From NCBI GenBank assembly GCA_949317995.1, contig OX439039.1:75464002-75528001 (forward strand): a stretch of 64,000 nucleotides of DNA. Direction: 5' to 3'. Position 1 is the first letter of the stretch. Every line of letters begins with the position of its first letter. Position numbers and translations under genes: made by a program. This document shows, piece after piece, positions 2,691 to 56,363 of this stretch. Source of the stretch: Acholoe squamosa (taxonomy: Eukaryota; Annelida; Polychaeta; Phyllodocida; Polynoidae). A model generated the notes under the pieces. It worked only from the letters and a program-made list of their open reading frames with translations. It had not been told where the DNA came from and did no database searches.

Positions 2691-6173
<3,483 letters not shown>

Positions 6174-11750: not shown

Positions 11751-12461
11751 TTAATTACACATACTGTCAATGCTGATATTAGACAAGACAAGCCCATCAC
11801 CATTATTCTCCAACATGGTATTAGTTGTAGACTCACTAACAATATCATGTCCCTCATTAGGCTCATTCCGACTGGCGTTACCATTATTACTACTGACAGA
11901 CTTTTTAAATGTTGATTTTCTAATTTTCTTTCCCACTGAAAACGTCATGGAAGCAAATGTCTTTTTCCCTAGTCTACTCCCCATCGTCCGGGTGCTTCTG
12001 CTGCTAGCTCGTGAGCTATAAGCCTGTATCCGCTCCTTTTCTATTTGATTTCCATCAAATTTGAAACTATTGTTTTTGGAGCGTCTCCTTTCGACGTGAC
12101 GTAACAGCGACGCTGGTTCCAATGCCTCCGTTTCTGGTGGCGCCCCCTGTGGCCGTTCCTCCGCACTAAGACCAACATTGGGGATGTTATGCTGTAGAAA
12201 ATCACATGCATCACATGTATGGCCCATTTTGGTTGGTACTTTGTGCCAAGTGATTTGATTGGTCACCTTGTCATAAGAACACTCTCCTGATCCTACGCCA
12301 TGTTCCACGAGATCCGCACCCAGTGCCTCATGCTCTGCAGAGACTCTGAGGCCTACAATTAATTCTATGCCTTTGAGCAATATACATGATATGGCAATAG
12401 TCCAACCAGTGATGGAAACACAGGCCAATACCTGGATGCCTAGCAGATAGCCACCTCCACC
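11751..12461 (-). CDS. AMT: AMT exon 9: last membrane helix and long cytosolic tail
   Basis: Residues 426-661, after an acceptor TATATTCCAG. Begins [20 protein letters not shown], then a hydrophobic helix and [19 protein letters not shown]. The remaining tail has CDACDF, a basic stretch ([19 protein letters not shown]) and many Ser/Thr, and may be a regulatory phosphorylation region. TAA is at 11753-11751. Confidence 0.94.
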   Translation of the reverse strand, partial: GGGGYLLGIQVLACVSITGWTIAISCILLKGIELIVGLRVSAEHEALGADLVEHGVGSGECSYDKVTNQITWHKVPTKMGHTCDACDFLQHNIPNVGLSAEERPQGAPPETEALEPASLLRHVERRRSKNNSFKFDGNQIEKERIQAYSSRASSRSTRTMGSRLGKKTFASMTFSVGKKIRKSTFKKSVSSNNGNASRNEPNEGHDIVSESTTNTMLENNGDGLVLSNISIDSMCN

Positions 12462-13127
12462 CTGGAATATATAAAGTATATGTAGGCTGCATGTAAGACC
12501 ATTTAGACTTTTAACAGAAAATTAACAATATATGTCCTTTCATTTAGATATGCACCAAATGATAGATTAACGATTTCTTCACCATTATATCTTGGGATAT
12601 ACAAAGCGACATTCAACATCCAGCTCAAACAAGTAGGATGTAACACTAATGAAAATGTGAACATGATGTTCTTTCCATGGCAATATGTTTTAAAACATGA
12701 TATATGCCCTAAATCAAATAATGATTAAAACCTTTTGATAAGACCTTGCTTAAGCTAGAAACTGTGAATAACCATTTGACAAACCTTGAAGAGTCCATAG
12801 TTAATAACATTTTCGTTGATGATGGACATACTGATGACGTCACGAGGGGTGAAGAGACCCCCAGCAACCAAGCTCCAGATTCCGCCTACCGCATGCACTC
12901 CAACGCACCCTGTTAATGTATAGATATCAGAGATATTGACATTAAAACTGAAAAACCATCTTTGAATGTATAATTATAGTCAAGTGAAAGGTGGAAACCA
13001 TAGTCCTATAGGTATGCAGTTTTGAGTCTTGGAAAGTTTTATTGACAAAACCATGGTACATAGTGTATCCTGCTCGGGCCATGCCAAATACAGTCATTAA
13101 CACATATACAAGTAAAGTGTTGTTTGA

Positions 13128-13206
<79 letters not shown>

Positions 13207-16143
13207 ATATACAATAACAAACTCAGGGTTACATGTCACCCATAAACATTTTCATGTAGATGATGTTTTCGTTCATTTATATAGGACTCAGTATGTTGGC
13301 CTAGTGGAGCCGCCATTTTGAATTTCACTGGTTGAGGTGAAACCAACTGATAACACATACCATGTTGGGTACCTTGTCCCTGGTTAACAGCAACTTCCAG
13401 GGACATGCTGGTCCCATCTTATCAGTTCTTGTCAGTGTGTGTCGCCAGAACCAGCTCCAGACCAGCTAGTGGTCAGTATATCAAATTTAGTAACTTGTAC
13501 ATATATTACATAATAGTTTGCCTTGACATCCAAAACAAATGGATCAGGGACACGTAATGTTTCATGAGTATAATATCTTAGACAACGGTTTTATATTGAT
13601 TCATCACAAATTTGCTCTACAGGGAATGAGCATCATAAAGCAACATCTTGACATCTTCTAAATGCCCACATACATGTTTCACAGAAGAAAGTTGATCACA
13701 CTCACAAAGACAATGGGAATGTGACACATAGATATAACATGTTGCTCCTATTTAACAGCCGATATGAAAACTCGCTGGACAAAGGCCTTTGCCGACAAAA
13801 TCACTGCTGGGCCCGTGGACATTGTCACACTGCAGGACTGAACATCCCAGGGTACTCTTGGGATCTTGGGGTATATTTTGGTTTTAACGGCTTGCAATTT
13901 GCACCATTATCAGGGTTTTTACCGCCTAAAATAAAAGAAATTGCTGTTTAATCAGAATGATTAGAAGGTGTTCGGTCCTGCGAAGATCAATCCCGGCCTG
14001 TGGAATAATTAAATCTGTGGGACCCAAATGCCTGTGAGCCTAAAAGGTTTTCGTATAGACTGCTGTTATTGAATTTAGATGGGATTGTCTAAATATTTAG
14101 TCATCAGAATTGTTACAATGCAAAAAGGAAAGAGAAATCACAAAAGAAAAGCAATGGAAGGTCCTTCTATCAGTCCTCTTTATAATGAGATCTTATCTCT
14201 AGATATGAGGAGCTGAGGCTGATTGACCATTGACTGAATACCCACACCTACCTACTGGGTCGTCTATGTGTAGTTTGTCCAGAAGGTGAATGCTACCAAG
14301 GCACAGGAGAGCTCCTATACCCCCAATGATGATGGCCTCCCATGGCTCAGCCAGGGCGCACAGGCCTGCAAGTAGAGAATTGTTTGATATATACTTTAAA
14401 GAGTCCTCCTACAGAGAGTTCCTAATCCCCCAAGATAGGTACTATCGTGCTACATCAGATACCATCAAGTAGTTCCAGAATGTAATGTTAAACTAAATCA
14501 CATTAAGTTTTGTTAGTCAATAATATCACAGCTTGCTGGCACTCGTCTTAATACCAGCCAGATCAACATATATGAAGCAATATATATCACATATACACAA
14601 CTCAAGAGTAGTTCTTTCAGTGGTACAATATGGGTTTCCATGCGGTCCTGCCTTGGGGTAATTGCCCAAGTGACTGCCCAGAAGCTGCCCAAGTGCCAAT
14701 AAGAGATCTGGAGCTTGTTTCAATAGTGTCTATGACAGGTTCAGGCCCCTATGACTTGAGAAGGGCCAAATCTTACCAGGTGATCTTAGGATTTTGGCCA
14801 TAGTGACTAAATAGCTGGCTTCATTACTGGATGATCGTTCTGCCTGCTGGCTAAATAGCCACCAGAGCAGTGACTCTGGATCGTGTTTCAATAGTTTCCA
14901 CGACAGGTTCAGCCAGCTACGACTGGAGATGGGTCAAATCTTAGCAGGTGATCTTAGGATTTTGGCCTTGGTGACTAAATAGCTGGCTACATTACTGGGT
15001 GATCGTACTGCCTGCTGGCTAAATAGCCAACACAGCAGTGCTTCAATGAGGGACCCTGGTATGACAACCCTCTGTGTGAATAATTAGTGGGTAGCCTTAG
15101 CTGCTGCCCTCTGCACTCCTTTGCTCAAATGTATCCAATCTGGGTTCTTCACACTACTACCTATAACCCTGTGGCCCGTGCCTTTGACTCTGGGATGGCA
15201 GGTTTATTTCTAAAGAATAAAATATCATTTGGAAAAGTGTGGTGTTTCACCTAAGAATTGAGCATTACTTCCACACATGGGCCAACTATGTAGTTACTAG
15301 TATGCAGTGGTGTAGATAGAGTACTAGGCCTTACAAAGCTGTCATGCCTGTCATACCTAACCCTCACCCACCATGGCTTTCTAATAAAATTACAAAGGAT
15401 TTCACACCTAGCTGACACCTCAGCCCTACTATTAAGAAAGAATAACAGCATACATTGTTTTAGATACAATTAGGTCATTAGATATAGATCTATCAGATGT
15501 AATTTGAAAGGGAATTACGTAGAACAATGATACATCATCATGTCTTCCTAAAACTGGCCCCACCAGGCCCCTATTCAAGGCCCGGCCCCTATTTGACACC
15601 GATTTGACAGCCCTCTTACCCCGGCCCCTATTCAAGGGAGGCTGCTATTCAAGGCCCGGCTCCTATATGAGACATTATGGTAGTTACTGCAGCCCTATGT
15701 TCATTTGAACACAGGAGTGCATACTAGACCATGAAGGAGGTATGACTGGTCACTATGTAGCCAATAGTGGCCCCTATGACTGGGTGCTATGACTTCATAG
15801 TGGTGTGTATTGAGCCAGTAGTTGAATAAATAGCAGCTGCTATTTTGAGGCCTCTACTGGAGCTCACTATGTAGTCAATGGTATTGAGTCATTTCTTACA
15901 CCTCCCACTACGATTTGAGGGTGTCCAGTCGTGGAAACTATTGAAACACGATCCAATAAGGGACCCTGGTATGGCAACCCTCTATGTGAATACATAGTGG
16001 GTAGTCGTAGCTCCTGCTGTCTGCACTCCTTTGCTCAAATGCACCCCACCTGTACTCTTTCCTCTGTAACCATGATTGTACTCTATATAATTTATGTAGA
16101 CTAATGCCCTGACCTCAGGCCACTCATAGAGGTTGATTGGCCT

Positions 16144-16217
<74 letters not shown>

Positions 16218-19200
16218 AGGTGTTGAGGAGGCTATGTATCTTCAACCTCCTGTTGAAGGTAGAGGAACCTGCTGCCAAATAGAAGCTTTCTGTACAATTA
16301 TGATATATGTAGGTATATTTGACCACCTTTAACAATATGATCCATTTTCATGATAATTGACCATGTGTGTACCCTTGTAACCAGCTGGGATCACCTATAA
16401 TGATATAGATACTGTAGCCCTATGCTCATTTGAACAGTAGAGTACAAACCATACTATGGGGGAGGTACAACTTGGCACTATTTAGCCATTTAGTATGGGT
16501 GCCTGGCCTGTACGACTGGGTGCTATGACTTCATAGTGGTCTGTATGAAGCCAGCAGTTGAATACATAGTAGGGCCTATTTTGAGGTCTGTACTGTAGCT
16601 CATTATGTAGTCATTGCTATGGGGCCATTTCATACACCTCCCACTATGATCTGTGGGTGTCCTGTCGTGGACACTATTATGGGTGTGGACCACTAAAATC
16701 GACATGGTGACATCGGCTATTTTAGGCTTAATGACATGGGACATGAACAATTTCTTAAAATTGACATGGTGACATGAACAATTTTAAGAAATTGACATGG
16801 TGACATAACCATTTCTTAAATTTGACATGGGGACATGACCATTTTATAAAATCGACATGTGACATGGGGCCCCCATCCACACCCCCACTATTGAAACAAG
16901 GTCCAGCTCTAAACACTAAGTAATCATACGTGCTTGAAGGGAATCTAACAATGGTAAATCTAATCAGACTACATTGATAGTACAAACGTCTAAATTATGA
17001 CAATTTTCACTCTCATATTTTCCACAGCCATTGATTTTTAGGAAAATGTTTGGTTAATTAGACTTAGCCTATAGGGTAACGTCCTATACCCTCACTGTTG
17101 TGTGTAGTTTATTCGTTTATCCCATCTATGTATACAGGGTATTCCAATATGGCTTCATGCAAAGGTTGCATCATGGTCTCACCTAATTGTAGTCATCGTA
17201 CCCTTTATGATACTGCCGCCCAATGGCTTAGGCCTCACCAAAAGAATTAAGTTGGTCTACGGATAACCCTCTCCATATTTTCGGAAATACATTTTTTTTC
17301 TTTGAAAAAAATCTTGTCTATGGATTTTGCTCGCTCCAGTTTCTACAAGTTTTCTCTTTGTGATGTTTGGCAAAATTTTAAAAAAGAATTTGTTCGCTCG
17401 CCTCACTTTTCCAGCAAGGAATACATTGGACGCAAAAAAAATGTTAAAAGAAAAAGAAAGAAAAGAATTCGCTCACTCACACCATTTTTTTCAAAACCAA
17501 AATCCGTAGACCAACTTATTTTTTGGTGTGGCCTTATATGCACTCCTAAATAGTTATCAAAAGCCGGTACACTATATAGGGGTTAGAGGTTTAGCTGGTA
17601 ATATATGAACTTTCTGCATGCAGGTAAGAAAAAAATCGTGGTGGTCTGACTCTCTTGCAAGAGTCTAACATAACGACAAATTGACTCTCCTTGGCAAAGG
17701 GTCAAAGGGGTCAGTCAAAACTGAACCATCTCAGCATTCCCTAAATCTCATTGAAAGTAGTGGAAGCACTTTTGGGCATCTCTTAAAAGAGAGTCATCTT
17801 GGCAACATGCTTAAATCTAGTGTGAGAGTCATGCTAATGCCTCCCTTTCTTCTTTTTATGGGTTTGGACATCGGCGTCAGTGCATGTTCCTGTCCCACAT
17901 TTCATCCCTCAATATATCACTGTATGGGTCGAGTGCGTGCACAGATAACCAGTGTCACTGTCATCAGGCCAAATGGTTAAATGGGTTAGTTTCCAGGAAC
18001 TATCTCTGAAAAAGAGACCTGGGATTGGTACCCGGTAGGTCAGATAGCCCCCCCCCACACACACACACATTCCTTATAAAAGGAAATGTATTGTGAAGGT
18101 GTTTTGTGTACCTTCTTTGACGATGCAATTAAATGAAACAAAGGTGATTTGAAATGGTGATTTTTCCTTGGAGAAAACTGAATTGAGAATTTAGGATTGG
18201 TTTTTCTATAGGGTCAGTTTGGTGAATAGAAACATCTTACTTTTCAATTTGGCCTCAGCACCACCCCTTATCCTTCAGTCCAGACCACAACAGGCGTGTA
18301 TCTCTTAGGATATTAGTGTTAGATGGACTGGTTATGGCCCTAATCTACCCCAAACCCCTCTACCCATTACTCTTCATGGACCTCAGATGATACCTTGGGC
18401 ATTTTGCAGATATAATGCTGGTATATGGCTAGAAGACATTGCTTATCGGAGGATGGTGGGAGAAATATATAGCCCTCACATAAAGGCACTGTTATAAACA
18501 TACATATTGCAGGTACTATAGGCTGAAAGGGTAGCCTGTGCTCCCGTTCATGGACTATCGATTCTGCCATCCTGCTTACTGAATCCCAACAAATGCCCTC
18601 CCATTGTTTTCAACTCTCTTTCTATGTTTTTTTTGCACACACAGTACTGAAGGTAATACAATACATAGAGATGCATGTTGTTAGAGAGATGATGACTGCA
18701 CATCAACGTGCTTTTCATATATTTATCTCACGGTATTAGCATGCATGCCTTTAAGTTATGGCATTTACATTATGTTTTTGTATGTGGTTATAATTTTAAG
18801 TTCAAGGTCTCTAGGTAAAAGAAAAAGCCTTTGTCTTCTTAGAGCTGACACTCCCACAGCGTAGAAACCGCCCTTCAGCTATTTAACTGGAGATCTATTA
18901 TTTTCTTATCACAGGCCACCAATTTACTCCTAAGGACAAAGCCACGATCACATGATAAAGGTACATTAGTCTTTATTGCAAGCCGTCTCCAACGGCACTA
19001 CGTTTCCGAAGGGAGTGTTCATTTTTTAACAACAGGGCGGGGGGGGGGGTTGGTGAGTTTTCATTTTGACCCCTGAAAATATTTTCCGCCCCCCCCCTTT
19101 GAGAGGGGTCAAAATATTTTGCGCCCCCCAACATCGAGTTGTGTTGCACCACATTGTACAGCATCATATCACACTCAATTGTATTGTTTTACTGAAGTAT

Positions 19201-22200
19201 AAGATAAAAGGTCACTTACCAGAGTTATTATCATTATTATTAATATTATTCTATTGGAATGCAAGAAATTGAAAAGGGGGTTCCACTTCACACAACCAAT
19301 TTCATCAGTAGCTGCAGTGTGAGTCACACACTACTTAACCTTATGTCTTTTGTTTGAAAAGGAGCCAGGACAAGCTAAGTATAGGGTGGTCTTGGGGCAT
19401 CACCCGCCCCAGCCAAACAGAGCCTAAATTCATGCATTCTGGTGGTTTTTGAGGTTTCCCGATACGCTCTGTTTAAAATTCTTCTATAGGGACACTTCAT
19501 ACTAAATGTTAGAATGGGATCTCATTGCATGGATCTGGATGAATCACAAGATTGATCTCTGTGGTCTTAGGTTAAAGCAAGCAAGCAAACTGTATTTGAA
19601 GGATCTGAACCAACTTGTTGCAGACACACATGAGCCCTTATGACTCTTAACTATAGGGAATGTTTTAACACAGCATTTGGAAATTTTGTTTGGGGGAGGG
19701 GGGTAACCAAAGCAATCCAAACCTGAAAATAAAAAACTTTACCATTTATATGGGTTGGGGGTTTGGGGTTTCTGATAACGTCTGACCCCTTCATGTATGA
19801 TGGATATCTTGCTATCCTAATGAAAATTTCAACCCTGGATACCAGAAGATTGCTGAGACATAAATTGATGTGCCTCTAGCCTTTCAGTTACTTGATTCTG
19901 CTGTAAAGTACTATCCGCAGATTTGTTCTCCAGGGAAATTTGGAAAATCTAGACATAATATCATGCATTGTCAGGTCAATTTGTGAGCAAGTGGCCAGGC
20001 CAACTCTAAGTATGTGCATACTGCTTTTCAAGAAAAATGTTTAAAACTCTTGGGCATGTTTTTTTTTATTGTTAGTGTGATTATTGTGTGATAAAGAGTA
20101 AGAATCAGATGGGGGTCCCCCAGGAAAATCTTGAATATTGAGAAGTCAAATGGTGCATTTTGGTGAGGTATGACTGCAGGGGCACATATCCCACCTGTCC
20201 CCAAGGTTTTACTACCCCTGCATCATCAATACACTGTTTTTGGCTCAGGGAACCTAAGGGTATATGGAGGTTGGAGTGAAGATTTTGATATTTTTTATTG
20301 AAATATTGGTTTTAATTTTGAGGGCCTTTAATTTCAGCTCAACTGAAATGAGAATTATGTTCATCAGATCTTCATCTCGAATGATTTTCAAAAGTAGGTT
20401 CATTCTAGGTTCAGTAGATAAAAAAAAAGATATCAGAATTCAATTTTAAACTCCATAGACTATTATAGGAATCTTAAATAGCCACACATTTTGTCCACAA
20501 AATAACACACTATGCTCTATGGAGGGGTCAGTTTGAGATGCTTCTTTCAGACATTTTCGCTAGCATTGCTCCCATGCCTCTAGAGGACTACAGATAGGGC
20601 AAGGGTGGGGGTTGGGGTCGGGGGGTCGTCTGGTCTGGTCCGTGTCTGGGTCGGCTTTATCCTGGTCAATTCCATGTCGTATGGGTCTGTATGGTCTGGT
20701 TCTGTTCAGTCTGGATCCATCTGATTCTGTCTGGTCTGGTCTGGGTCCCATTGAAATCTTGACTGGGTCTGTTGTGGTAGGTTCAGTCCAGATCCATTTG
20801 GTCTGGTCCGGGTCAGTCCAGTCTGGGTGAGTCTGTCCAGGTGGATCTGTCCGGGGGCAGTCTGGCTGGCTCCAGGTCGGGCCATCTGGGTCAGGCCATC
20901 CAGGTCAGGTCAGGCATGTCTTGCTAGGCCCACTCCAGATGAGGGGAGGAAAGGCTAAGTAGAGAGAGAACAGACCATGACATATATGCAAATTCCAGAT
21001 GCGAAAAAAAATTGAGGCATTAAAAGTAAAGACTCTTCTTTGATTTGTCATTAATAGGTTAAAATGGGGCAGAAAATTTTGAATATCAAGAAGTCAAATG
21101 GTGCATTTTTGGGCTTTTTGAGGGTGGCTGATGCCCTTGTATCCGAATCTTTCTAAGACCCCACCATATATATAAAATGGTAAAATGATATCTCATGGGG
21201 TCTGGACAAAGATTGACCATAACAGATCTTAGAATAACAGAGAAAACTGAAAAAATGAGGGGTTTGCACGTATGCATGAGCCATCTGTGACAGGTGTCAC
21301 ACATACAACAGAGTTCTCATGTTCTAGTGGAGCCAAAGAGCGTGACTTTTCCCTGATGCTTGGAATTTTCTTAAGTTTCCGAGATGCATTGAAATAAATG
21401 CAGTTCCAAGGGGTTTGGGGGTATGAGTGTTGGGAACTCTGCATACAATCTTGTTAGAAGTATGATACTCCTGAAAAATTTTGAAATTTTATAAAGAAAA
21501 TGGTGCATTCTGATGCATTGTAAAATTATCAGTATAAACTTTCTTCTTCTGCAAGTAATATATTGAGATATTGCCCCACTACTTATCAAATTGGGTATTC
21601 ATGGCAAGTCACGTCAATTCGCACCTCATCGAGAAGGGTCTAAAAATTTTATGCTGCCCCTCAAGAGCAGTCAAAATATTTTTTGCCCTCCCCTCAGAAG
21701 GGGTCAAAATATTTTACGCCCCCCCCCAAACTCACCAACCTCCCCTGTTGTTAAAAAATGAACACTCCCTAAGAAAAGACTGAAGGAAAAGAAAAATCAG
21801 GTGTTCACAGGCTTTACTTTGCCATCTTGATTCCTAACTATTTGTCCTTTATTATGTTTTTTGCTGCCCTGGTAACCATTTCCAATTTTAAACTGTAACA
21901 GAAACTGGGTCTGTTCATTTTAGGATGATTCGTCATTTTCTTTTGTCATGCTATGGATGGTGGTTGCCATGGCAACAAAAGGTAGAAATTTTGAGAATCG
22001 ACCTCTTCCTTTGGATTCTACATCATTATATTGATAAAGAAGAATAGTACCATAATTCTTAGAGTAAAATGCCACTAGGCCATGGATATTCTGGATATTG
22101 GTCGTGACTATATTTAGGCCAGACTGTCATTTATTACCACCTCTACCAGAAGTGGAGAATATTGTAGAAAAGAAAGAAAAAAAATCTTCCACTTACCTGT

Positions 22201-24593
22201 AACTGATACCAGAGCACTGAGGACGCCATTGATGAGGCAAGGCACGTCAAATTGTTTCCTTTTGGTAAAATAACTGTAAAAACATAGAGAAATATGAGAT
22301 TTTCTTCCACTGTTATGAACAGTACCAAATGTGATTCAAGGAGACCAAAATAAAGTAAAAGTAGACATGGGTACAATAAACTTTAACTTTTAAGGTTACT
22401 AGTGCCTTCGGTACTAGTGCCTTCGGTACTAGTGCCTTCGGCACTAGTGTGGAGGGGGAGCAAAGTGCCACAGCTTTTACAGAGTTTACTATAGGTCTAC
22501 ACTGAGTGTGTAGGCATACTTGTCAGAGCTATCTATTCCCATTATATTTTGTCACCGTTAGTCTATAGCTATGTTATTTCAGTGCCAAATTAGAATGGAG
22601 AATGATGGCGGATTTTTGTGAAGTCTTCGATCCCTTGTTACCACTGTTTATGAGAGTATGGTAGTGAATGGAAATTTTCTCTACTGATGTTTGATCCTCG
22701 AGAATTAACCCTTCAAAAAAGAATGGGTATTAAAAAAATATGAGTTCAGAACATCATAAATGTGAAAATCGAGGGGAAAAATTGAATTAACTTTGAATAA
22801 AGTACATACTTTGATCTAACCTCTTTTGGTTTAACTGTTACTGGCAAGCAGTTAAGCTTATTTTAATGGGGTGGAGATCAGCGACGAACTAATGCCTTTT
22901 CATATATAGGGTAATAACAAAGTGAGTTATAGGAATTATTTGTTGTAATTGATTTATAGATAAAAACGATATGTTGGTTAATTTATGATTAAATAGTGTT
23001 ACTTCCAAGTTTGTTTTACCAATGATCTCTGTAGAATATTTCTGGAACTTACCTAATACCTAGTCCAATCATACCACCAGAAAAAGATGCACAAATAGTG
23101 GCTACAGCCGATCTACAAGTAGAAAGAATGCTTGATGGATTATAGACAACATAATGTACCAGAAAGTGGTGTAATATCAGTTATTTTATCCGTAGTTCTC
23201 AATATAGACCAATGCACCAAAAATTATGACCTTTCCAGGGTGTTGTTGATAAAATCTTCATGCATTTGCAAAAATGCCTTTCGCAACGTAGTATATAGAG
23301 GGAATTAATATATGCAATGCACATTTCGAAAAAGCATAATGCCAAAAGGTTGATAACATCCTTATTAGGGTTTTACCTTGCAGCCAGTTTCCATTTCAGA
23401 CCTGAGATACCAAATGTACTCCCGCAATTGAAGCCCAGCCAGCCCCACCTAAATATGACAGAGATAACATTGTGATGAATATTCATGATGATTCATGACT
23501 GATTGCTTCGCCATATCATTCATTCTGAAACCAACCTTAAGTTGATGGGTACATCAGAGGTATTGGGCTGATAGTGACTCATACATAGAGATCTAATTAT
23601 GAGCTTTAGCGGAAGTCCTGATCAATACGATGGATGACATATACAAAATATCAACACAGCTACGCTGATCTTACTTCAAGGGTTGTAGGTCCCGAATTAG
23701 ATTACGATTACCTATATAGCAGCTTGATATTACATTCACTTATATTCCATGATAAAGTAAATAAAGGAGCGCTGCTCATTAAAAAAAAAAAAAAGATTAC
23801 GATTACCTATGTACAGGTGGGCTAATCTTTGACTATGCTATCGGATGGCATTAGTGTATTCTGTGGAGAGGTTAAATACGGGATTCATTCTCTATGCTAA
23901 TTGTAAATATGCAAAACGGTTTAAAAGGCAATTGTACGAATTGTCTATTTATATAGGGTGTAGATGTGTTGTGTTGTATATTTTCCCAAATAGATTTGCG
24001 ATGAGGTGCCCATCACAAACACTGGGTATTTGGGTGATCTGTACAATATTAAGATTAAACCTACCATAGCATGAACATGCCTAGGATTGCATTGCTAGGT
24101 GAACCCATGGGAGGCAGGGCCGTTGTCTTAAAACGATTATTCCTTGGTTTTAACATGAGGGTGGCAACCAGTCCTGTGACTCCTCCCACGAGATGCACAG
24201 GCCCCGCCCCTGCAATGTCAATCACGCCCATCCGGGCGAGCCAACCGTTGTTAGCCCACACCCAGTGGGCGGGGATACAGAAGACGAAGGTGTTGACAAA
24301 GGAGAAGATGATGTAGGATTCCAGCTTGGTCCTCTCTGCCATGGCTCCTGTAATTAGGGATTAAACTGAAGCTACTACAGGCCAAAGTAGATCATTGTCC
24401 ATGGACAAGACATGTATTTTGACATTAAATGCTATAGAATATTTTCGTCAAGATAAAATCCTTTCTTCGTCGCAATGACATAGTGTAATAATTTTTGCAA
24501 CGTTACCCTTGTGATAGTGTAACACCAGCATTAATTTGTTTAAGAAATAGTAGCTTCTGATGGGATCCAATTGAAGTCATTTCTACAAGGTCA

Positions 24594-24646
<53 letters not shown>

Positions 24647-24769
24647 CTCTCTGCCTACCTGGCTGTCTGTCTCTGTCTCTGTCTGTCTTTGTCTCTGTCT
24701 GTCTCTCTGTCTCTGTCTGTCTGACTCTGTCTCTGTCTCCCTCTCTCTCTGTCTCTCCTCAACTATCCA

Positions 24770-24814
<45 letters not shown>

Positions 24815-25217
24815 CCAATAATATTGTAACAGTGTTTGGTTGCCTAGGGGAAATGACAACAAGACAGCTACACGAGTACGGTTGACAAACAGAGACGGCT
24901 GTCCCTTCTTTTCTGAGAACAATAACTAGTGGTACAATGAGTCGACGACTCATGAAACGATCATCTATTAAACAGCAATTGGTCATCTATTAGTCATCAA
25001 GTTTGCTTCTGGGATCAATGCCCAATGTCCTTCCTATAGCCGTGGCTCTACCAGGTAGGCTGGTCCGACCTGTGCCTTTTGGAGCCTAAGTCCCAACTGA
25101 GGGGCCGCTGCCCCGCGGTCACGTTATATAGTGGCCGCGGCCAACGCGTCCCCTAGTGGCACCTGGCCGAACCAACCGTCCCCCAGGGCCCCGCAGTAGC
25201 GGAGCGCCACCCCTACA

Positions 25218-25251
<34 letters not shown>

Positions 25252-28200
25252 TTTTCTATTTATCTATTCCATCACCTACCCGAGACAATAGTGGTGGCTG
25301 TGGTAGCAAATGAAGCCTGGAAGAAGAACTTGGAGTAAACCCAGCCAAAGTCACGTGCATTATCAGAGACTAGAAAGTCTCCCCAGCCACAGAAGGGATT
25401 ACTCAGGGGTTCTTCTCCAAAACTCAACCCAAAGCCAAACATCCAGTAAGAGAGACCCCCAAAGATGACGTCCACGGCGTTCTTCACCATGATACTGACC
25501 TCGTTCTTTGTGGACACTGAGCCACTCTCCAATAGGCCAAATCCTGGAAAAAAAAGAAGAAAAAAGAAAATCAGATCACGATAAGGTTTTCTTGCATTTC
25601 TACATGATGAATTAAGACATTCTCTTACTCCAATAATCATATTTTTTAAAGGCCAAATCCCACAACGCGAAAATAGTTAGAAAATCCTTGTGATGTAGGA
25701 TATGTTGTTATTCAGCCGGTATTTAGGATGGTATTATCGTCCAAGGAAGTCCAATAACAGCTACGAACCCTTGCCAAAGTGTTGTTATTTCAGGAGTGGA
25801 ATACATCAAAAGTTTTTGATATTTTTCTCACAAGAGGCCAGAAATCTCTGTGATATAGGGAAATTCCCTGTGATTTAGAGGAAAACAAGAATCTTTAGTA
25901 AATCACAACAGGTCTGTATATTTTTCATAAATCAGGACCCAAGTCCCACACACTATAGCCATAAGAATGTTGTACTTGTGAATCAAAGTAGCAACTAGTC
26001 AGTTCAGAGATGAATATCACAGACATTTCCCTTCCCATAGTGGCTAGTAGTGGGGTTTGAGAAAGGTAGGAGTGGTATGAGAACCCTTGTGAATTTTGTT
26101 TTTGACAAGACTCCAAGGCTGCCGATATCCAGAATCACAGGCGTTTAAGACCCATTTTTCGTGTAGTGGAATTTGGCCTTTAGGTAGCAAAAACATCCAC
26201 ATTTTCCAAACTGTGTAAACAACATTTAGACAAATTTGGGAATGCTGATCAGGTAATCATGTAGCCTCCCATTAGAGTGATGGTATGGGATGATGGAAAA
26301 TATTGTTGTATAATGAACAAGTAATTAATGGATAATTCATGACGGCTTAATCCTGCTTTTCTATACAGAGCTTAAATGTAGGGTATTAAGAGAGTTCTTC
26401 CTTATAGTTACAAAATATCATTTCTTCTTTACCCATAGATAAAACACTAAGCTGTTCCGTGTTAGTTTCCATGTAGTTCCTCTTGATAATATTTTCAATG
26501 CTGTATGATATGAAAGCCAATGGACAACCAAATTCACAAATAACTCGGTTCATGGAGCATCGTGCACAATTTTGTCTCATTTATATGCATCACTGAGCAA
26601 CTGATCAATGATCTGATTCTAAGGGCTGACAGATATGGTGGCAACTGGCCAAGGAATATCGCGGTATTCTATTTCTGAGTTGTCATTTTGAATGAAACAT
26701 TCATTAGGTTTTATCTATAAAAGCCAGATTCTGAGATAGGACCCAGCCCCGTAGTTCTAAATAGATACAGGATATTGATTGGCTGCCCCACCCTATCCAC
26801 CATTTAGTCTTGCCTTCGCAGATCTGTGTATCACTCATTAGTGATGTAATTAGATCTAGCCTAATTACAAAATATCTGGAAACAATCATATATGTGTTCT
26901 GGAACTGTTTTCCCTCAGGCCATAATTCCATGCATTCCTATGATTATAACACTAGATTTCGCAAGGGTAGGATTGTTGGAAGGAGAGTTCTTCTGGTGCA
27001 TGCATTGTTTATTTAACTCCAAATTTTCATCTGTGCAGTAGTTCATCCCCTTTCCTTCCTAGCATTTTATAAGAGAGCTTTTGGAAGAGATTTTATCTTT
27101 TCTATCCAAAGTACAAAAAAGATGATCTATGACCCCACCAAATGCCTACCATTCTGTATATTTTCGGTCTAGTTCAATTGGTACACTTTCATCCACAATA
27201 GCCCACAGTCCGTTATATTTGCCATATATGGCATATATGCAGACACTGGTACTTATATTTCCAGTATTCCACATACATATCTTCAGTATGGGATTGCCAG
27301 AAATGAGACCGCATATATCTTCTTCCACTCACGAAAAAGGAATTGGCTTCGGAGCAATGTCATTCTGCTCAATGAAAATCGATTGTGGCAACTAAATTTC
27401 TGGACACTGGACGTTTAGCCCTTAAAGCAAAGAGGGATGCATCTAAAGAGCACTCAACTTTGGCATTGGATAGAACATCTCTTTCATTCCTTGTTAATTC
27501 ACATGTACTTCATCTGAGTAATAAACCAAGTGCCATATGAATGCCAAACAGTAGCATCTAAGATGACCAATAACTCGCCTTGTGGAGCCCATATCCATGC
27601 CAATAACCATCCTTATCAGTCACCCATTGCCTGCCTGCCTTACCCCTGGGCCAGCACATGATTGCCTGGAGGGTGTTGCTCCTATTGTAAAAAGAGCTGT
27701 GAGTATGTGCCCTCTTTTCTAAACAAGCCGTGCACTACTTCACCTAAGTACTTGCACTCACCACATTAGTCTGATAAGTCACCTGCCTTGTTTTAAATAG
27801 AGAAAGAGCTGCACTACCAGGTACCTACTCATGTCACACGCTCTATAGTTTATCATACTGACTGACTTCTCCCAACTAGGTACCTACTCAAACCCTCCTT
27901 TTTTAGCACCGTACTTGAATGACCACTTGTGAGCAACAAAAGGGACAAGTCATAGCTACATGGAAAGAAAGGACTGGAAAAGAGGGCATTTTTAGCCAGC
28001 TCTTCCTTTTACTATAGGAGCAACACCCTCCAGCACAACTAACGGTCAATCAACATGAAGGACACTGACCGACTTTGGCATGGATCCGAGTGCACTCTCC
28101 TGGATATAAGGGAGCCTGCCAACGTAAGCTCTACTTCAGCAGGAAGTGCACTCTCTAGGGCAAAGAAAGAATATCCCTAACCCAGCCACATCGAGAAAAA

Positions 28201-37200: not shown

Positions 37201-40200
37201 ACCACCGTAATCATTAAGCAGGGGATCAGTGTAGAACCCCCAGGTTGCAGTGTGATGCTACAAGGATTCTCTGTGAAAATAACGACATCTCTGTGAAAAT
37301 AACAACGGATCTCTGGCAACTTTGGGACGAGGAATTATTCGCTATTTTGACAACATCTTTTTTACAATGTTGGAAAGGGCAATACATATAGGATGTTGCA
37401 CATACCTCCATAAATTGGATAATACACACAGCAGATTATTCCATTCTGCTACATTTGTATTCCAATTTACTGATTTACAACAACTTCTAATTTCCCATAG
37501 AACACTATAGTTTCTTCTACAACAGGACGTTGTCTTTATAACGAAAGAAGATGCTGTGGCCTGCTTACCTGAAAGGGTAGACATGAATCGATACGCCATA
37601 AGTCATTTTTTGTTGTTGTTTAAAGCCACACCCTTTTTTATTAGCAATTTCACCATTCACATCAACGCCCACACGCTCATTCATAAATCTTACACCCCTA
37701 AGCTTGTCCTTGGTCATTTACAATCTTTATTTCGGGTTAGACTGTCCAAGAGTCGACCGCTCAGAGACAAAGGAAAACGGGGAGGCAGGGAGGCCTGCCC
37801 CACCCCCCTTCCCCCGATCAGAAATGAGGGGGGCTAAATATGTCTATAGCGTCCCCCCAAATATGACAAGACATTGAAATAAAATGCAGAAAAATCATAG
37901 GCAAACGTGTCTATATACTAGCATCATATAAGAAGAAGAAGATTATGTTGTGGGAAAGTGAAATGGAAAAGTAGGATCTGTGCCTCAAATCAAATAACCA
38001 AAGAGTACTTTTATCACACAACGCCTATGTGGGCATAACATAGCCATCTGGGTGCACAAGCCGATGATTCTAGTTGGTCAGTTTCCACCCCCCCCCAAAA
38101 AAAAAAAAAATATATATATATATCATTTAATCATACTCGCAGTTTGTGGAAACTTCTTGTCTACAGGTGGAGTGGTCGCCCTCAGATATCTGGGGTATGT
38201 TTCAGAAAGATTAACTATCATCAAATGGCCCTACTACCACCACTTTCAGATTCTAGTAGGAATGAAACCATCTAGATGATGACCAACTATCTTGTACAAA
38301 TCAAATCGAACAAAGTGATTGTACAAATATGCCTATACAAAGATGTACAACATCACTACTCATTCTCCAGCTTTATACCACTATTCTGGCACTTCCGGTG
38401 GTTTTATATGCGATATATACGTGGTATATTCTGCATATGGGTCATTCTCATGAACTGTTGGCAAATGGCCTGAGGGTGACCTGAAAAGGGCTAATTTTTA
38501 GATCTATGATCAGATAAAAATCCTTTTGTCTTAAAATACTATGGGTCTTGGCCTACTCATATACCAAATTGGGAACATCAAATCAGAAAACTGTGGCTAT
38601 GGCACCTGGCTAAAGACACTATATTAATTATTGTAAGACTGCATGAGGCGTTGACTAACGCATTTACTATTTTAGGCACTACAAGGGTTTATTTTTTATA
38701 ATATAGGTATGTTATACCTTTGGAGTTAGTTACTCTAGGTAGGGGAGGGGCTATGCCTCATATACACAAAATTTTCCTTCATATTATCATGTGCTGAGTT
38801 GCATTCTTTATATATTCTTTATACAGGTGGTTTTGTGCTATCTTTGTTTGGTTAAGAGAATAAAGTAATCATTTTATTGTAATGTCTTCCAAATAGGTAC
38901 ACAAAGTGGAATTCCACAAAAAAATTTCAATTCTAACATGAATGTATAAAGAGACTATCCTATTTCCAATGGTGGGTGGGTCTTGGGCCTTTTGTACTCT
39001 AAATACCTGTGAAGTAGCTATAAAGATGTGGTTCATAAATGCGTTAGTCAACGCTTCATAGACTATACAAGAGCAGATTTTACCTTATTTTCAGAAGCAG
39101 GTGAGCTATTCTTTTGCTTTTTATTCAAATTTTTTTTTCAATTCAGTATCTTTGTAATTATTCGAAAGTGCTGACTTCAGATTGTATGAGGGACTTAGTT
39201 TTCAGTTAGGAGTGCCATTGATATGCAATCTATTTCAATGATGATTATCACTATTACAATGGTGATATTTCAAATAAATCGATATTCAGAAAAGAATCAT
39301 AGGACAAAAATGAAAGGACTGGTAGATTATAATTCCATTCCCACTCCTCAGCTCCTATATGAGTACAAGTGACAACTGATCATCATCCTAGGGCAGTGGC
39401 CAAAAGTGATATCCCACTTTTCAGACCTGAGGTATTTTCAGCCACCAGGCAGTTGACTCATGAATATTCTATATTATCAATGGATATGGATTCCAAAATT
39501 GTCTTTGGCCATAACTCTAGTTCTATTTGGAACAATTTTAAAATTCTTTCACGATTTAAAAGAGCTTGTGCTTGGGATAGCGGCGCATATCATATTATAT
39601 CAATGTAATGCTTTGATGCGATAATCATGAGTCCAGAAATGCTGATACATCAATTCTATTGGTATCAATGACACTCCTATTTTCAGTACCGGTATATACT
39701 CAATATTTTCACTGAAAGGAAAGTAGGAAACAGGTATCTTGATTGCACTATTAATACGGATATCAAACACCCATAAGTAGTATAATTTAGCTGTAGGTTA
39801 ACATCACCCACTGTACCATGACCATTTCACTTGAAAAACTGTGTGCAGCAGACTTATCTTTTATTTGTTATTTTCTTGATGATGTGGCAATTCATGCATC
39901 AAATGATTACCACAACATTATAGCTGTAAGCTAACCTCATGTTTACATGGACTATGACTTTGAAGGGAATACGTTGACCTACATAAACACAATTTAGATG
40001 TATTTTTTTTTCTCTATATAAGGTAATACTTGAAAAGCCTGACCCATAGCCCAATTGTGAGCATGTGGTAAACAATTGACTTCAATGATAAATAGACATC
40101 AAAATTTCCAAAAAGAAATTGTATGTAGTTGAGGGTTTAAGGTAGTTAGATTTATACAGAGCACTGGAACTGTGTAGCTCTACATGACTTTGTTGCGTTA

Positions 40201-43200
40201 GTCAACACTTCAGAGAGATTAAAGTGTCAGTTAACATTACACACCATGCTGCATGGATTTATGCCGCCCATTATATAGAGGAACTCTCTTGATTAAGTAT
40301 TTTGTTCTATTGATTGAAAGAGATAGTTTATGTGCAAAATAATGATGTAAATGCACACAATATGGGTGCTGTGTAGATATTTCTTCTTTTTTATGCGTTA
40401 GTCAACGCCTCGAGAATTTTGCTGTTAGTCAACATTACATGCAATGTACCTTTGATCTATTATCTTATGTATGTATAGCACATCTCTCTCGTTTCAATAT
40501 GTTGCTTACATTATTACAAAGAATATCTATGTGTAAAATGAAAACTTAAATATGCTTAACATGGGGGATTATAGAGATAAATAATTTTGTTTCTGGGTTA
40601 GTCAACGCTTCTGGAATATTACACAAATATACCATGAAAATGTTTGATTGGCTACAGAGGCAAGTGTTTTCCATATTTTCCCAATTCCTTTTTAATACAT
40701 ATGTGTATAGGTAGAAAGTGTTACATAGTAACCTATAGACAACATTTATTGTAATTTTGGCAAAAGCTATAGGGGTTCTTTTTTCATCCATTTATGCATT
40801 AGTCAACGCTTCAAAAAACTACACAATCTCATTTTAATGCCCACTTCCTGTATTTTAGGAACTAATGAGAGGTTTAAAGCACTCCAGCATTTCATTCATT
40901 GTTTATCTATGTGAAAATAATGAAATTGGCTGCATTTTCTTTCCTGATTAAATTTTTTTGTGCCATAGAGCATTCTCTTACTAAGGAAAAATACCTAAAA
41001 ATATGCCATTTCCACCTGGTTTTTGTTTCTCATGCAGTTAATATTGTCCATAGAGAGGCAAAACTATATACCCAAATGTAGCCAAACATGTTGTAGACCT
41101 GATAGAATCAGTGAAAATCAATTCAAAGCAATCCTCTGAGATTTATAACATAATAAGGCTAAAATGCTGATCTGCTAACAGTTCATGAGAATGACCCATA
41201 TACCACCCTTGTGCGTCTTTAGAATTTTTGGTATATACTTTTTCGGGGTCAAGTTGGACTTAGAATATTTTTGGAGACGCTGGCGGACATAGAAATTTAG
41301 CCTCGCCATTGTTTCAATGTGAAAAATCGTCCCAACTCGTATGAGGATTGAACCCCGGCCGCAGTGGTGGTAGGCGAAGGCCTTAGCCATAGCGCCACAC
41401 TGAACGGTGAGGAAACCAAAAGCAAAGGTTGAAGACTACTAACCTGATGGTGATAGGTCCGTATGTGCACCCGCATTTCGTATCGAATCCAACCATGAAA
41501 AGTTTTCAAATTAAAACATACATATCCTTAGACATTCTAGATGATCCCTCCATACGTATTATGTCCAATATATTCAAAATAAATAAGAATCCATTGATTT
41601 TCCAAACCGGACCGAAATTTTCGGCGTCTTCCTTGCACGACGAGCGGATGACCTATATCCACATCCGGGCCACTGACACACTTTCGCCGAACAAGGAGGC
41701 GGGTGGGAATGGCAGACCGCGACTCGCTTACGATGGAAAAATCAATGGATTCTTATTCATTTCGAATATATCGGACATATCAAGCATGGAGTACTCATCT
41801 AGAATGTCTAAGGATATGTATGTATTAATTTGAAGACGTGTCATGGTTGGATTCCATACGAAAAGTGAGTGTGAACACGGCGGTACCCCTCCCGGCAAGG
41901 AACAAAAACAATCATGGCTTCGCGCAGAGCGGACACGGGCCGTGTCGCTTGCACTTACAAAATGTCTTCGCCTGGCTATATTCTTTGGATTTCAGGTAAG
42001 AAATTAATACAAAATGGAGGAAATCATGGTATAAACCTATTAGTTCATGGATGTTGGAGCCCACGGGGAGTCTATGCTGGATATACCCTCGCCGCTCCGC
42101 GGCTCGGGTATATCCAGCATAGACTCCCCTAGGGCTCCAACATCCATGATCTATTAGCTTAGTAGATAGTTTGTGGCTGTGTAGTGAAATCAGTACATTT
42201 TTTGTTGTGCAGTTGAAAAACTGATTGTACAATCTTACGCTAGTGATTGTAAAAAGTTTTAAAAAGGACCAAAATGTTTATTGTACTGAAACATACCGAA
42301 GTATATAGCTAGAGATCGGCTCATGGGCGGATTATCCTATGCCCTAGAGTGAAGACCCACCCTTGTATTTGGGATATAACATCTTATATATTTTATTTAC
42401 CTTATACTGCTTGCTTGCAGGCATTGCTGGAATGTATGCTACTTTTCCACACCTTTATCAAAGGCATTGACATCCAATCCATAGATCTGTTGAATGTAGA
42501 TAAAAAAACACACCACAGGCATGGTATGCCATCCTGTGCTGTTTCTTTTCATTTCAAATTGAATAAACCTAGACCTTAAAATGCAACCATCCATCTTAAC
42601 ATCCATAGCCGGCTGGTACCGAGAGTTGACAACCGTATATGTTAAAGTCCTTAAAATGAAAATCTACAGATGACAGATTTGCCCATTTCCTTTACAAGGA
42701 AAATTTGTGCAAAACTAAAATTAATGATATTCCTAGTTTGTGAAAGTGACCTGCAGCTGGCATTAGGTAGTTAGAGTGGTTTTTGGTGTATCACCCTATG
42801 CCCTACAGTCTTGTATTTGGTTACACATTTCATATTGTTATTGACCTTATTCTGCTTGCAGAATATTTTGGAGTATGTCCTATTTTTCTACACTTTCATC
42901 AAAGGTATCGACATCCAATAGGCTATATATCTGTAGAGTGTAGAAATCCCGTCTTTTATATTCACAACTAAGGAATTATACAGGTGTAATTAGCACCCCA
43001 CACCATTACCTTCCTTTCTCTTGTGTCTGCCTGTCTCTGTCTGTCCTCAACTGGAGGAATCTGCCATCCATCTTAAGATAGAACATGACCAATTGGCTCC
43101 AGATACTGTTTATACTCTATATCGGCTCTATTAGTTACTTGAGTGTTTTATCCAGATATTCTACCTGATCAAATTTCTTTCTTTTGATGGTATTCTAGTA

Positions 43201-51094: not shown

Positions 51095-54000
51095 TACATG
51101 CCTGAAGAGATTATATATATATATATATATAGTAGCGTTTTTATCGGAGTCAACTATTGCAATGCAGAAGTACCACACAACTCAGCTTCTTTTATTAATG
51201 ACACTTTATTTCCTGGCATCCTCTGCCACACCAGCTAAGTATCTCTGTGTAAATCCTAGCCTAAGGAGGGGAAGCCCGAAGATGTAGACACCAGCACCCG
51301 TAAATCCAAACTGAACTAATGGTGTCGATCCCCTCCTATTTATACGCTTCCTGTTTCTCCAACGCTGGCGTCTCCAACAGAGACCCAGCGTCGGAGGAAC
51401 CCTCCCCCGAACGCAAGGTAAATAGAACGTTTTGGTGTGACTCCGAGGTCGGCGGCTCCTCCGCCCCCGCACCAGGACGGTTTCGGCATCGCCACCGACC
51501 CCTCGGTCTACACCTAAATACATATATGTGGATCAACACGTAAAAGGTATGCCCACGCACCCCCTCACGGGCATACCTTTTACGGTGTTGATCCACATAT
51601 GGTAATAACAGAACATTTGACGTGACTCCGGGGCCGGTGGTTCCTCTGCCTCCACAACAGGACAGCTCCATCACCACCACCGACCCCTCGGTCTACGCCA
51701 CTATATATATATATATTTATATATAAATAAATATATATATATAAGTTAATGTGTTGATCGAGTGTACCAGTAATAATAATAATGAAACATTATAATAATA
51801 CAACAATTAATATGGAATAAATAAGAAGACATTGGGTTTGGTGAGAATTGACTTTGTCAATATCAATCCTATACATGCCTTTATTATTAAGACAATAAAT
51901 TCATGTATACAATAAATGACAATATATACATATAATCACAATATCACAGTACAATATAATAACAATATACATAAATACAATAAGATAATTAAGGTTTAAA
52001 ATTTCCGGCACCACCCAGCGTGGTGTATGCTGTTCGAGTATATGAAGCCAATTGACCGTTAGTTCAACTGCTGGAGCTTATATACTGGAGGAATTGTTAT
52101 GTGTGACGTCATAGAAAATCATGTGCCCTGGATAAAGTGGTACCAACGTATCACTCATTAATTATATATATATATACCTGGGGGTATATAGTCCCATAAG
52201 TTAATGTGTTGATCGAGTGTACCGGTAATAATAATGAAACATTATAATAATACAACAATTAATATGGAATAAATAAAAAGACATTGGGTTTGGTGAGAAT
52301 TGACTTTGTCAATATCAATCCTATACATGCCAACAACCGCCAAACATAATGTAAAACATTCCACATTAAATCATTACATCCAAAGCCAGCAAGCTGTCCT
52401 TAGACTCATGTCAGTATTATAAATAACATTAGATTTCCAATTGGCTCGCCTCATAATATCCTGAACACTCAGACCAGCATTTTTTAACAGAGTTGCACCA
52501 CCATGCCTAAGAGAATGAGTCAAAACTCCATTGGACAAACCACACTGAAAAGCAATAGCTTTTAACTTGGTATTACATAGTTATATTGCAATGGTCTAGA
52601 GTGGATGGAAAATAGAAACATATTGTACCTACAGGCTTTTAAACACTTCTTAATATATCTAGCCGGACATAAGTCAGAACTATCATCTCTTTTAAGATAC
52701 ACAACATAGGAGGACTTGCCAAACTGGTCAGTTTTAGACGAAATAACTTTAATCTCTATACAATCAGAAGAAACCTTAACATTCTTCTTTAAAAAATTAT
52801 GAGGTGAATGTACTACGTGTGCTATCTTGAACACAACTCAGTAACATAACAGTATGGCAGACCAAAATACCACATCTTCCATAGAATCCAAATTAAGTCT
52901 AGATTTAATTTGAACCATATTGCTAGGACTCAGAGGGTAGGTTGTACTACCAGACCTCTTACACATCCTCGCTATACCGTCAAGGGTTTTCTACACCACA
53001 AAATTACTACTATAATTAGTGTAACCTTTTAATTTCTGGTAATACCACACAGCAGACAAATAATTCCTGACTGAAATAGGTTTCATAAAATCAGACAAGT
53101 ATACACAATATAAAGAAGCTTGAGAAGGAGTACAAGGAAGGGGGGTAAAATTAAATCTTTTACAAACTTTTTTGTACCTACTAAACTGCTGCCTTTGAGT
53201 CTTACGAGTGGACTCAGCTACACCCCCATACAAGAATTTTCTCCTTCTCCTCTCCAACTTCTTGAGGTCTGCAATCATAACAACACATGCTATATTCATT
53301 CAAAACTTTTTTGCATTTCTTTGGGATACCCCTATAATTTATCCTAGACAAATGGTCAGCTAAAATGTTGTCCTCTGACCTAATATATGTAGAATATATC
53401 TCAATATTATGAATGAAACATAACCAGAAAATTTCATGTAACCATCCCATGCACAATTTGTTCTTGGATCTACCGGTATTTAACATAGCCAAGACTTGCA
53501 TGTTGTCTGTGATACAATGGACTCTAGTGTTACTAAACTCTTTCAACCAGCGCTTCAGACCCACCATAACAGGATAGAGTTCATATACATTAATATACCT
53601 GTGGTGAATCTTGAGATTATCCAACTAAGGCGCAGGAGTAAAATGACCACCGCAAACTAGCATAGGGTTTGTATCATTCCAAGTACCATAGAGGTAATCC
53701 TTACTGAACCAAGCCCCAAAGCCTTGTGTAGAAGAATCCGAATAAATCGGGGTACATTCATTATCATTTAATATGATATTCCTACAATTGAAAACTCCAC
53801 AAAAATCCTTCCACCACATCAAGTCCTTCTGGGTTTCCTTGTCTAGTCTAATAACACCTCCAGTTTTAGCCCTGGCACAGAGATCAAACAATCTTCCGCT
53901 GAAGGTCCTACCACCACGTACTACTTGTGAACAGAAAGACATTAAACGACCAATTTTTTGGAGAGTCTTCTTAGATACAAACTTCTTTCCTAAGCATTCA

Positions 54001-56363
54001 TTTAGTGCCAGACTCATTTTATCTAATTTCTTTTAGGGTAGACACAACTCCATACTAGTGGAATCAATGGTTATACCCAGGAATACACATATCTGACTAG
54101 GTTCAGTTACCTTTTCCATTGACACAATGAAACACATGTACTCCATACATTCAATAAGGATATTCCTCTTATGTAAACACTCCTCCTCAGTTTTAGCAAT
54201 AACAATAAAATAGTCTAAATAATTAACCATCCTATCAACACCATAGAACTTAGCTACCACAGTTAAAAAATCAGATATTCTATTGAAGATATACGGGGCA
54301 CATTTCAGACCAAAGGTTAAGCGGTTGCTCTCAAAAAATTCTTCTCCATTACCAAAATCCCATCTGAGACCCTGGTAACCTATATGTGGACCATACATAT
54401 TGATACTTCTATAGGCAGATTTTAAATCAACCACGCTCATATAGTCATTCTTATCCAACTGACATGTTACCGTATTTATAGAGTTATAAGAGAAACTTTT
54501 TGATGTAGTTCCCATATAATTGTTAATAGAGATATCTACTGGCATGCTACAATCCGTGATAGGTCTTAATTTACCATAAGACTTTTCTACACCACCTAGA
54601 GAGTGAATACACTTAGGTTTATAGGCTGTCTTTGTGACCAAGCCCTGGGACAACTCGTCCTTGATAATATCACACATTTCGCTATAAAATCTACCTTCTA
54701 CAATAGACATAATTTTTACAGTCATATGCTGTATCACAACCCCGGTCCACTATTTTGAACCCCTCAGTAAAACCACACCATAGAAAATCTGAATCTATCT
54801 GGTTAATACTAATAACATCTGACTGTCTCAGAAAACTAGCTAGTCTGCAAGGTAAAATTTGAGCTTTTCGACCATAAATAAAATGCTCACACCTGCAAAT
54901 ACCATTGACACAACTATCATAAACCCTGATGCTGGGTCTATTAACACACTCCACTGTCAACAGTGGTTCAACCTCGCCCTGTACTGGGCCACTATGGGTT
55001 ATAAAAAGATTCTTGTCATCCACACAAGACTCATTAACATCATTTTTATTATTTTCACCCGAAATGATAGGAACGGGGGGCTCAGGAGGATCTACCGCAT
55101 GTACTATATTAAAATCAGGCACCAATACATCAGACTCTAACGTAGGCCCCTGCCTAAGAACAAAATCCTAATCCCTCTTATTCTTCTGGCACTTATCCTT
55201 GCCATGGTTAGACATGCCACACACATCACAGGCATGTCGATATCTACATGGGTCCTCCTTACACCCCTCTGCCCTGTTAAACGCATAGCAAGTAAGTTTG
55301 GATTGTTTGGATTTGAAATCTTTAGGTTTGACTACACCGGCCTTCTGGGCCTGAACCGTCCCATCATAGGATAAATGCCTAAGAATATCTTCACTCCTTA
55401 CATCACTGAATGACTCTACACCATCAGAATTTGCCCTTTTTTTTACAGATGAATCGTAAGCCACCAAGGCTTTGAGAGTATATATCTTAGTAGAGGATTT
55501 TTCCACAAACACCTCTATGTGCTTCACTACCGCGAACACATCCTCCCCCTCTTCTATCAATTGCTATCAAGTTTCTCTCCGTTTTTAAGAAAATTCTTTT
55601 GATAGAACATACCTCTAGCTCTATGTGCATAATGACGACCATTTCTAGAGGAGATTGAACCTGTAGGTGTTGAGGAATTTGATGAAATGCTACGGTAAGA
55701 CGAAGACCGGCTCGTGGATCCAAGATGGCGCCGCGTTTTCCTGTCGCTATGGAGTCCGCGGTAGTCAGGTGACCATTGTCGGCCACGCCCCCGTTGCATG
55801 GTTACTGCGTCACTAGAAGAATATTAACAAACATCTCCACGTGCACGATCCATCCTAGGCTCGCCACCCGTTGCTGTAGTAGTTGTACGATTTAGCGCCT
55901 GCCCCTCCAATAGGAACTTGATATCAGCCAACTGCTGTTCCATACGAGCAGTACGATCCTCCAACTCTCCAATCGTCTGGTCAACGGCTGAATCCAATGT
56001 TACCCCTGTAGCATTCGTGGAAGATAGCTCCTGGCCACGCCCATTGGATCTCACACCGCTCGAATTCCTCGAATTGGCTATATTTCTAGTTTTTTTGGGA
56101 GATTTCTTGGTCTTAGATCTTGGCCCGCCACCCGAAACTCCTTTCCTACCCATAATGTCAGGGTATGTACGGTATTAACTCGACTAAACTGAAAAATCAG
56201 TTTAAAATTTCCGGCACCACCCAGCGTGGTGTATGCTGTTCCAGTATATGAAGCCAATTGACCGTTAGTTCAACTGCTGGAGCTTATATACTGGAGGAAA
56301 TGTTATGTGTGACGTCATAGAAAATCATGTGCCCTGGATAAAGTAGTACCAACGTATCACTCA

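Follow-up and report, generated by a model that had tools for sequence, protein, structure and literature searches.

In the account given in PMC3627910, the Sola2 transposons of slime moulds have 4-bp, AT-rich target duplications of the form AWWT (ATAT, AAAT, ATTT) and short inverted ends of 12-13 or 21 bp. Drosophila contains Tetris, a non-coding element with terminal inverted repeats (TIRs) and internal tandem repeats of ~220 bp, and Galileo, whose internal tandem repeats carry extra transposase binding sites, as described in PMC4079207. Miniature inverted-repeat transposable elements (MITEs) are usually smaller than 800 bp, according to PMC5199201. Here, we describe an element from the polychaete Acholoe squamosa, located at 38439-41197 of a stretch of 64,000 nucleotides that was analysed as a whole and is called the window below (C5:75464002-75528001 of a 1.48-Gb assembly). 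The element belongs to a young family of non-autonomous cut-and-paste DNA transposons with many copies, a kind of family that is already known. It contains six copies of a 14-bp motif, four of them in an array with a pitch of about 200 bp, and the pattern of change in the family hints that the motif is kept in source elements, a constraint on jumping rather than on host use.

An initial annotation of the window, made from the letters alone, had proposed a large element with inverted ends at 38438..41198, flanked by TA. The element was borne out, and its ends are common to many loci, but the element proper occupies 38439-41197 and a 4-bp duplication, ATAT, lies outside it:

38439..41197, plus strand: non-autonomous DNA transposon of 2,759 bp, with no stop-to-stop frame longer than 81 aa
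38435..38438, no strand: left target-site duplication ATAT, a 4-bp duplication being present in 33 of 34 two-ended copies
38439..38466, plus strand: left terminal inverted repeat of 28 bp, GGGTCATTCTCATGAACTGTT..., with the first 21 bases identical to the right end; common to many loci
41170..41197, minus strand: right terminal inverted repeat, from the comparison of the inverted arms
41198..41201, no strand: right target-site duplication ATAT, from the flanks of other copies

The ends of the element are 28-bp inverted repeats that start with GGGTCATTCTC... and form, together with the ATAT duplications, 32-nt inverted arms (38435-38466 and 41170-41201) that are 94% complementary. Since ATAT is its own reverse complement, the duplication looked like part of the element ends. 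A 24-base end has 222 matches in the genome at two or fewer mismatches and none in the backward control; 100 of these places were listed, and only part of the 222 were fetched. A 64-base query (38437-38500, consisting of two duplication bases and the first 62 bases of the element) was scored for the best 40 of 144 candidates, all of which are 100% identical, the window itself being one of them.

Thirty-four of the copies sampled have both ends; L013, with one end missing, and the one-end loci were left out of this count. An exact 4-bp duplication flanks 33 of them, with L019 as the exception. The duplicated sequence is ATAT in 23 copies, GTAT, TAAT and TTAT in two copies each, and ACAT, TCAT, AAAT and ATAC in one copy each. 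For the 24 copies of which each lies whole within a single sampled locus, 23 have flanks that agree over exactly 4 bp and none has agreement over 5, 6, 7, 8 or 9 bp; in one of the 34 copies the flanks are equal over 6 bp, within an AT run. The apparent NNAT bias of the duplication is at least partly an ascertainment artefact because the 64-base query had AT before GGGTC and the other pattern started with TAT; the flank identity is unaffected. A TA duplication, as in Tc1/mariner and as the TA flanks of the initial annotation would suggest, is rejected, as other copies have 4 bp, for example TCAT, ACAT and AAAT. The TTAA duplication of piggyBac and Kolobok occurs in 0 of the 33 copies, and the 7-8 bp duplication of P/Galileo is absent from the flanks of the 24 copies. 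A foldback element with long inverted arms was also rejected, given that the ends are 28 bp long and that the arms, once the motif is masked, are no more alike than shuffled ones. Twenty ends had no partner among the places listed; the match to the family extends over at least 118 bp in 18 of them, over 34 bp in L072 and over 99 bp in L087.

The longest stop-to-stop frame in the window copy encodes 81 aa (39363-39605) and has no match among solved structures. A Pfam search (E 0.1) with the 20 longest among the 49 frames of at least 30 aa in this copy gave no match. The lack of a longer frame and of a Pfam match identifies the element as a non-autonomous DNA transposon.

The element contains six GCGTTAGTCAACGC motifs, three exact and three with one mismatch, found in a search that allowed up to two mismatches; the same search of shuffled sequences gave a mean of 0.12 motifs and a maximum of 2. 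The motif is a near-palindrome, GCGTT-AGTC-AACGC, and its copies are arranged as follows:

38648..38661, minus strand: motif copy 1, exact, pointing to the left end, from the motif search
39041..39054, plus strand: motif copy 2, exact, from the motif search
40195..40208, plus strand: motif copy 3, one mismatch, at the start of internal unit U1 (40195-40394)
40395..40408, plus strand: motif copy 4, exact, at the start of U2 (40395-40594)
40595..40608, plus strand: motif copy 5, one mismatch, at the start of U3 (40595-40795)
40796..40809, plus strand: motif copy 6, one mismatch, at the start of U4

All six copies named in the initial annotation were thus found, with starts 2 lower than given there. 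The start spacings between the four plus-strand motifs of the array are 200, 200 and 201 bp, and the two left motifs, which the annotation had facing each other, point away from each other. These left motifs lie 393 and 1,154 bp from their neighbours.

Like the ends, the motif recurs in the genome well above the backward control, with 687 matches to 15 bases at one or no mismatch versus 15 in the control. The 100 motif places listed fall into 38 clusters, 31 with at least two motifs and 7 with a single one, and L064, an interrupted copy, accounts for two of the 7, one on each side of its interruption. On visual inspection, the clusters with several motifs have for the most part the spacings typical of the family, and among the matches listed the motif chiefly marks this family. 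Elsewhere, an 18-base match was found in one viral contig and two bacterial records, a number at chance level by our estimate, and the 20-base end had no match in viral contigs. In the full-text literature, the 10-base motif core combined with 'terminal inverted repeats' gave nothing, and the 9-base core gave nothing on this element as judged by titles.

The array recurs in other copies of the family. All six motifs, at two or fewer mismatches, are present in 18 of 20 fetched copies, while L013 holds two and L026 none. Within the 18, L014 and L021 have inserts between motifs, and L029 and L018 have one extra match each. Counted over copies with at least four array matches, the window included, the spacing is 200 bp in 24 cases, 199 bp in 15, 201 bp in 10 and 196 bp in three, and 202, 203, 170, 587, 796 and 2,370 bp occur once each. 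The 796- and 2,370-bp spacings span inserts, the 587-bp spacing is due to the extra match in L029, and the 196-bp spacing is found in all three sampled members of one subfamily. The 200-bp spacing of the window therefore recurs in other copies.

The origin of this pitch is suggested by the units themselves. U1 resembles U2 from one end to the other: their local score, computed with the first 18 bases left out, is 113.5, whereas shuffled sequences average 53.1 and none of 200 scores as high; BLAST aligns them at 66% over 232 columns. The other pairs are weaker. Only U1-U4 among the other five array pairs passes z 2 (equalled in 8 of 200 shuffles), as does U3 compared with the stretch after the 39041 motif (equalled in 3 of 200). 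Outside the motif, all array pairs are 64-70% alike in global alignments with 10-70 gap columns, a level that is partly an effect of free gaps. The best offset within 40000-41199 is 200 (z 3.8), closely followed by 455 (z 3.5). The best reading of these comparisons is that a 200-bp unit was duplicated in tandem long ago and has since decayed, the pitch being the period of that duplication; U3 and U4 appear to be tied to it by register and motif more than by sequence. The initial annotation had likened the pitch to a nucleosome repeat, and a pitch that positions nucleosomes over the element would agree with the dominance of 200, 199 and 201 bp, close to one such repeat, among the copies. We regard this as highly improbable because the spacing follows from the duplication of a 200-bp unit, the left motifs lie at quite different distances from their neighbours, and one spacing of 196 or 170 bp is found in some copies.

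Conservation is higher in the motif than around it, as had been noted at the outset. Pairs of array units share 12-13 of the 14 motif bases, compared with 64-70% of the ungapped sites outside the motif. In the U1-U4 pair, seven further windows of 14 columns reach the identity of the motif; the other five pairs have no such window. In fixed register, identity over the six copies is 0.93 for the first ten motif bases, 0.71 for the next ten and 0.23-0.45 for the other fourteen blocks. An array without present function, left over from the tandem duplication and with motifs alike by chance, by short gene conversion or by the recent spread of a short piece, would account for the likeness of U1 and U2 over their whole length, and it fits constraint tests (below) that reach only P 0.03-0.04 and lose significance without CpG-type sites. 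It is nevertheless unlikely in our view, since the six motifs follow their consensus at 81 of 84 bases and the rest of the units is 64-70% alike, for which the binomial P is 8e-10 at 0.70, although the six copies are not independent.

Changes between copies were examined in an alignment of 17 full copies, made without L013, L014, L021 and L026, in which pairwise difference is 0.6-6.0%. The copies form three subfamilies of 10, 3 and 3, with L024 in between and left out of the subfamily tests, so that 16 of the 17 were used. Three subfamilies with private changes in each copy are the pattern expected of a few source elements. A difference between subfamily majorities is found at 1 of the 84 sites in the motif, at none of the 56 in the ends and at 160 of the 2,587 elsewhere (binomial P 0.031 for the motif and 0.028 for the ends). 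The ratio of private to fixed changes is 9:1 in the motif and 225:160 in the rest (one-sided Fisher P 0.04). As the same data served to define the subfamilies, and as common descent links the sites, this result is suggestive only. Free decay of the motif after insertion with little change between sources is the pattern of a cis-acting transposition site, again at the level of a suggestion.

These observations lead us to favour, with about even confidence, the reading that a young family is moved in trans and that the motif is a binding site for the transposase or a helper, kept in source copies. Acting in trans, the transposase would bring together the two 28-bp ends (GGGTC...GACCC), cut the DNA and place the element in AT-rich 4-bp targets, mostly ATAT. 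The near-palindromic motif would most likely be the site for a dimer of the transposase or of a helper protein, and binding there would increase capture of the element from its interior. The site may have been multiplied on the right arm when a 200-bp unit was duplicated in tandem early on, after which the units decayed and the sites were kept, presumably because source copies that lost them jumped less, as the pattern of change suggests. The protein binding for which the initial annotation took the motif to be kept thus agrees with modest statistics for the source elements, and the binder itself is our inference. Far less probable, and very unlikely in our judgement, is the stronger proposal that mobility depends on a one-sided internal array of evenly spaced dimer sites far from the ends, with the pitch, at one site per nucleosome, loading transposase or helper onto chromatin.

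Several observations weigh against the binding-site reading. The motifs lie ~210-1,000 bp from the nearer end and five of the six point one way; typical subterminal sites lie nearer the ends than this. In the 17 full copies, variable columns make up 14 of 84 in the motif versus 449 of 2,617 in the rest, and minor letters 1.5% versus 2.3%; in single copies, loss of the motif after insertion is about as frequent as change in the rest. Without CpG-type sites, the ratio of private to fixed changes is 3:0 in the motif and 141:101 in the rest (P 0.20, not significant). The ends were dropped as a matched control for constraint, as they hold only one private change and each end alone gives P 0.17; the lack of change in the left end is partly due to selection because 16 of the 17 copies were found by its exact match. 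Both L026, a 250-bp deletion copy without the motif and with the correct duplication TTAT, and L009, which lacks the right array, have intact duplications, which either deletion after insertion or jumping without motifs would explain. Among the best 40 of 288 candidates, which were scored, the one full match to the junction of L026 is L026 itself, and this copy was thus not seen to multiply. Finally, an autonomous partner sharing the outer ends, for which the initial annotation had suggested looking, was not found in a partial search that used no Sola2 profile.

That search covered variants of the ends. The 11-base GGGTCATTCTC, with AT before it and another base at position 12, has 27 matches versus 17 in the control, with no inverted pair within 10 kb. 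Variants first differing at base 17 gave three matches, all inside copies of this family, and those first differing at base 18 gave one, in the same family. A partner would be missed if it shared fewer than 11 end bases or first differed at bases 13-16, unless it had two or fewer mismatches to the 24-base end. As an autonomous copy, L089 was rejected: only its last 99 bp match, and 8 kb contain no second end (at six or fewer mismatches), no motif (at three or fewer) and no stop-to-stop frame longer than 142 aa. All that L072 and L089 retain of the family, next to unrelated DNA, is 34 bp and its last 99 bp, respectively. The inserts that lengthen L014 and L021 are internal to the element, with no frame above 117 aa, and L062-L064, searched whole, have none above 130 aa. 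The own ends of the inserts (L014 3359-3951 and L021 3297-5463) look inverted, and they are probably later insertions of other elements. In L027, the same 36-base stretch occurs at 763 and 5094, on both sides of the copy, a hint of local duplication.

A different role for the motif, as a host transcription factor site with the array acting as promoter or enhancer for the element's own RNA or, by chance, for its neighbours, is possible, though we hold it to be doubtful. The motif core TTAGTCA resembles AP-1/Yap-type bZIP sites, and a near-palindrome in several copies, apparently kept in source elements, would suit such a factor. A precedent is given by the Helitrons with heat-shock elements in Caenorhabditis, as reported in PMC6927752. 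The element has, however, no sizeable open reading frame for a promoter to serve, and the loss of the motif from single copies at about the ordinary rate gives no sign of host use at most loci.

The remainder of the window contains other features. A large imperfect palindrome (41459-41880, 143-nt arms, 85% complementary) lies just to the right of the element and is perhaps another inverted-repeat element. Exons of an ammonium transporter lie at 11754-25676 on the minus strand (Pfam PF00909 in three separate frames), and a reverse transcriptase (PF00078) at 52994-55563 on the minus strand adjoins frames that look like those of a DIRS-type retroelement. A partial class-III aminotransferase match at 3186-3548 on the plus strand is below Pfam's own cut-off.

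In a young family with near-identical copies and clean 4-bp duplications, changes in the sources can be separated from changes in single dead copies. This makes the family a well-suited natural system in which to ask whether a non-coding transposon has cis-acting sites in its internal repeats. Binding of the motif by the transposase would, if true, explain why the gene-less 2.7-kb form, and not a short one, multiplied.

Compared with the systems described, the element is a new family of a known kind in which the role of the motif is inferred. It shares with MITEs and other non-autonomous TIR elements the lack of coding capacity, the inverted ends, the target duplication and the high copy number; it differs in its length of 2.76 kb, which is above the MITE size given in PMC5199201, and in that the full form, not a short one, multiplied in the sample. 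The 9-base end GGGTCATTC lies inside the mariner ends of Rhodnius (CGAGGGTCATTC...) shown in PMC4678618, which are otherwise different. The target duplications resemble those of Sola2 as described in PMC3627910, with 24 of 33 fitting AWWT (ATAT 23, AAAT 1; the last two positions are biased by the way copies were found) and 9 of 33 not fitting; the partial search gave no Sola2 transposase or autonomous copy to tie the family to them, and duplication length alone does not prove membership. With Tetris and Galileo, in the form presented in PMC4079207, the element shares internal repeats, but theirs lie within long inverted arms, whereas here the ends are 28 bp and the array occupies one arm; the duplications of Tetris are 8-10 bp and those here 4 bp. 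The layout, one-sided and with short ends, thus differs from that of Galileo and Tetris, while the kind of element is itself known.

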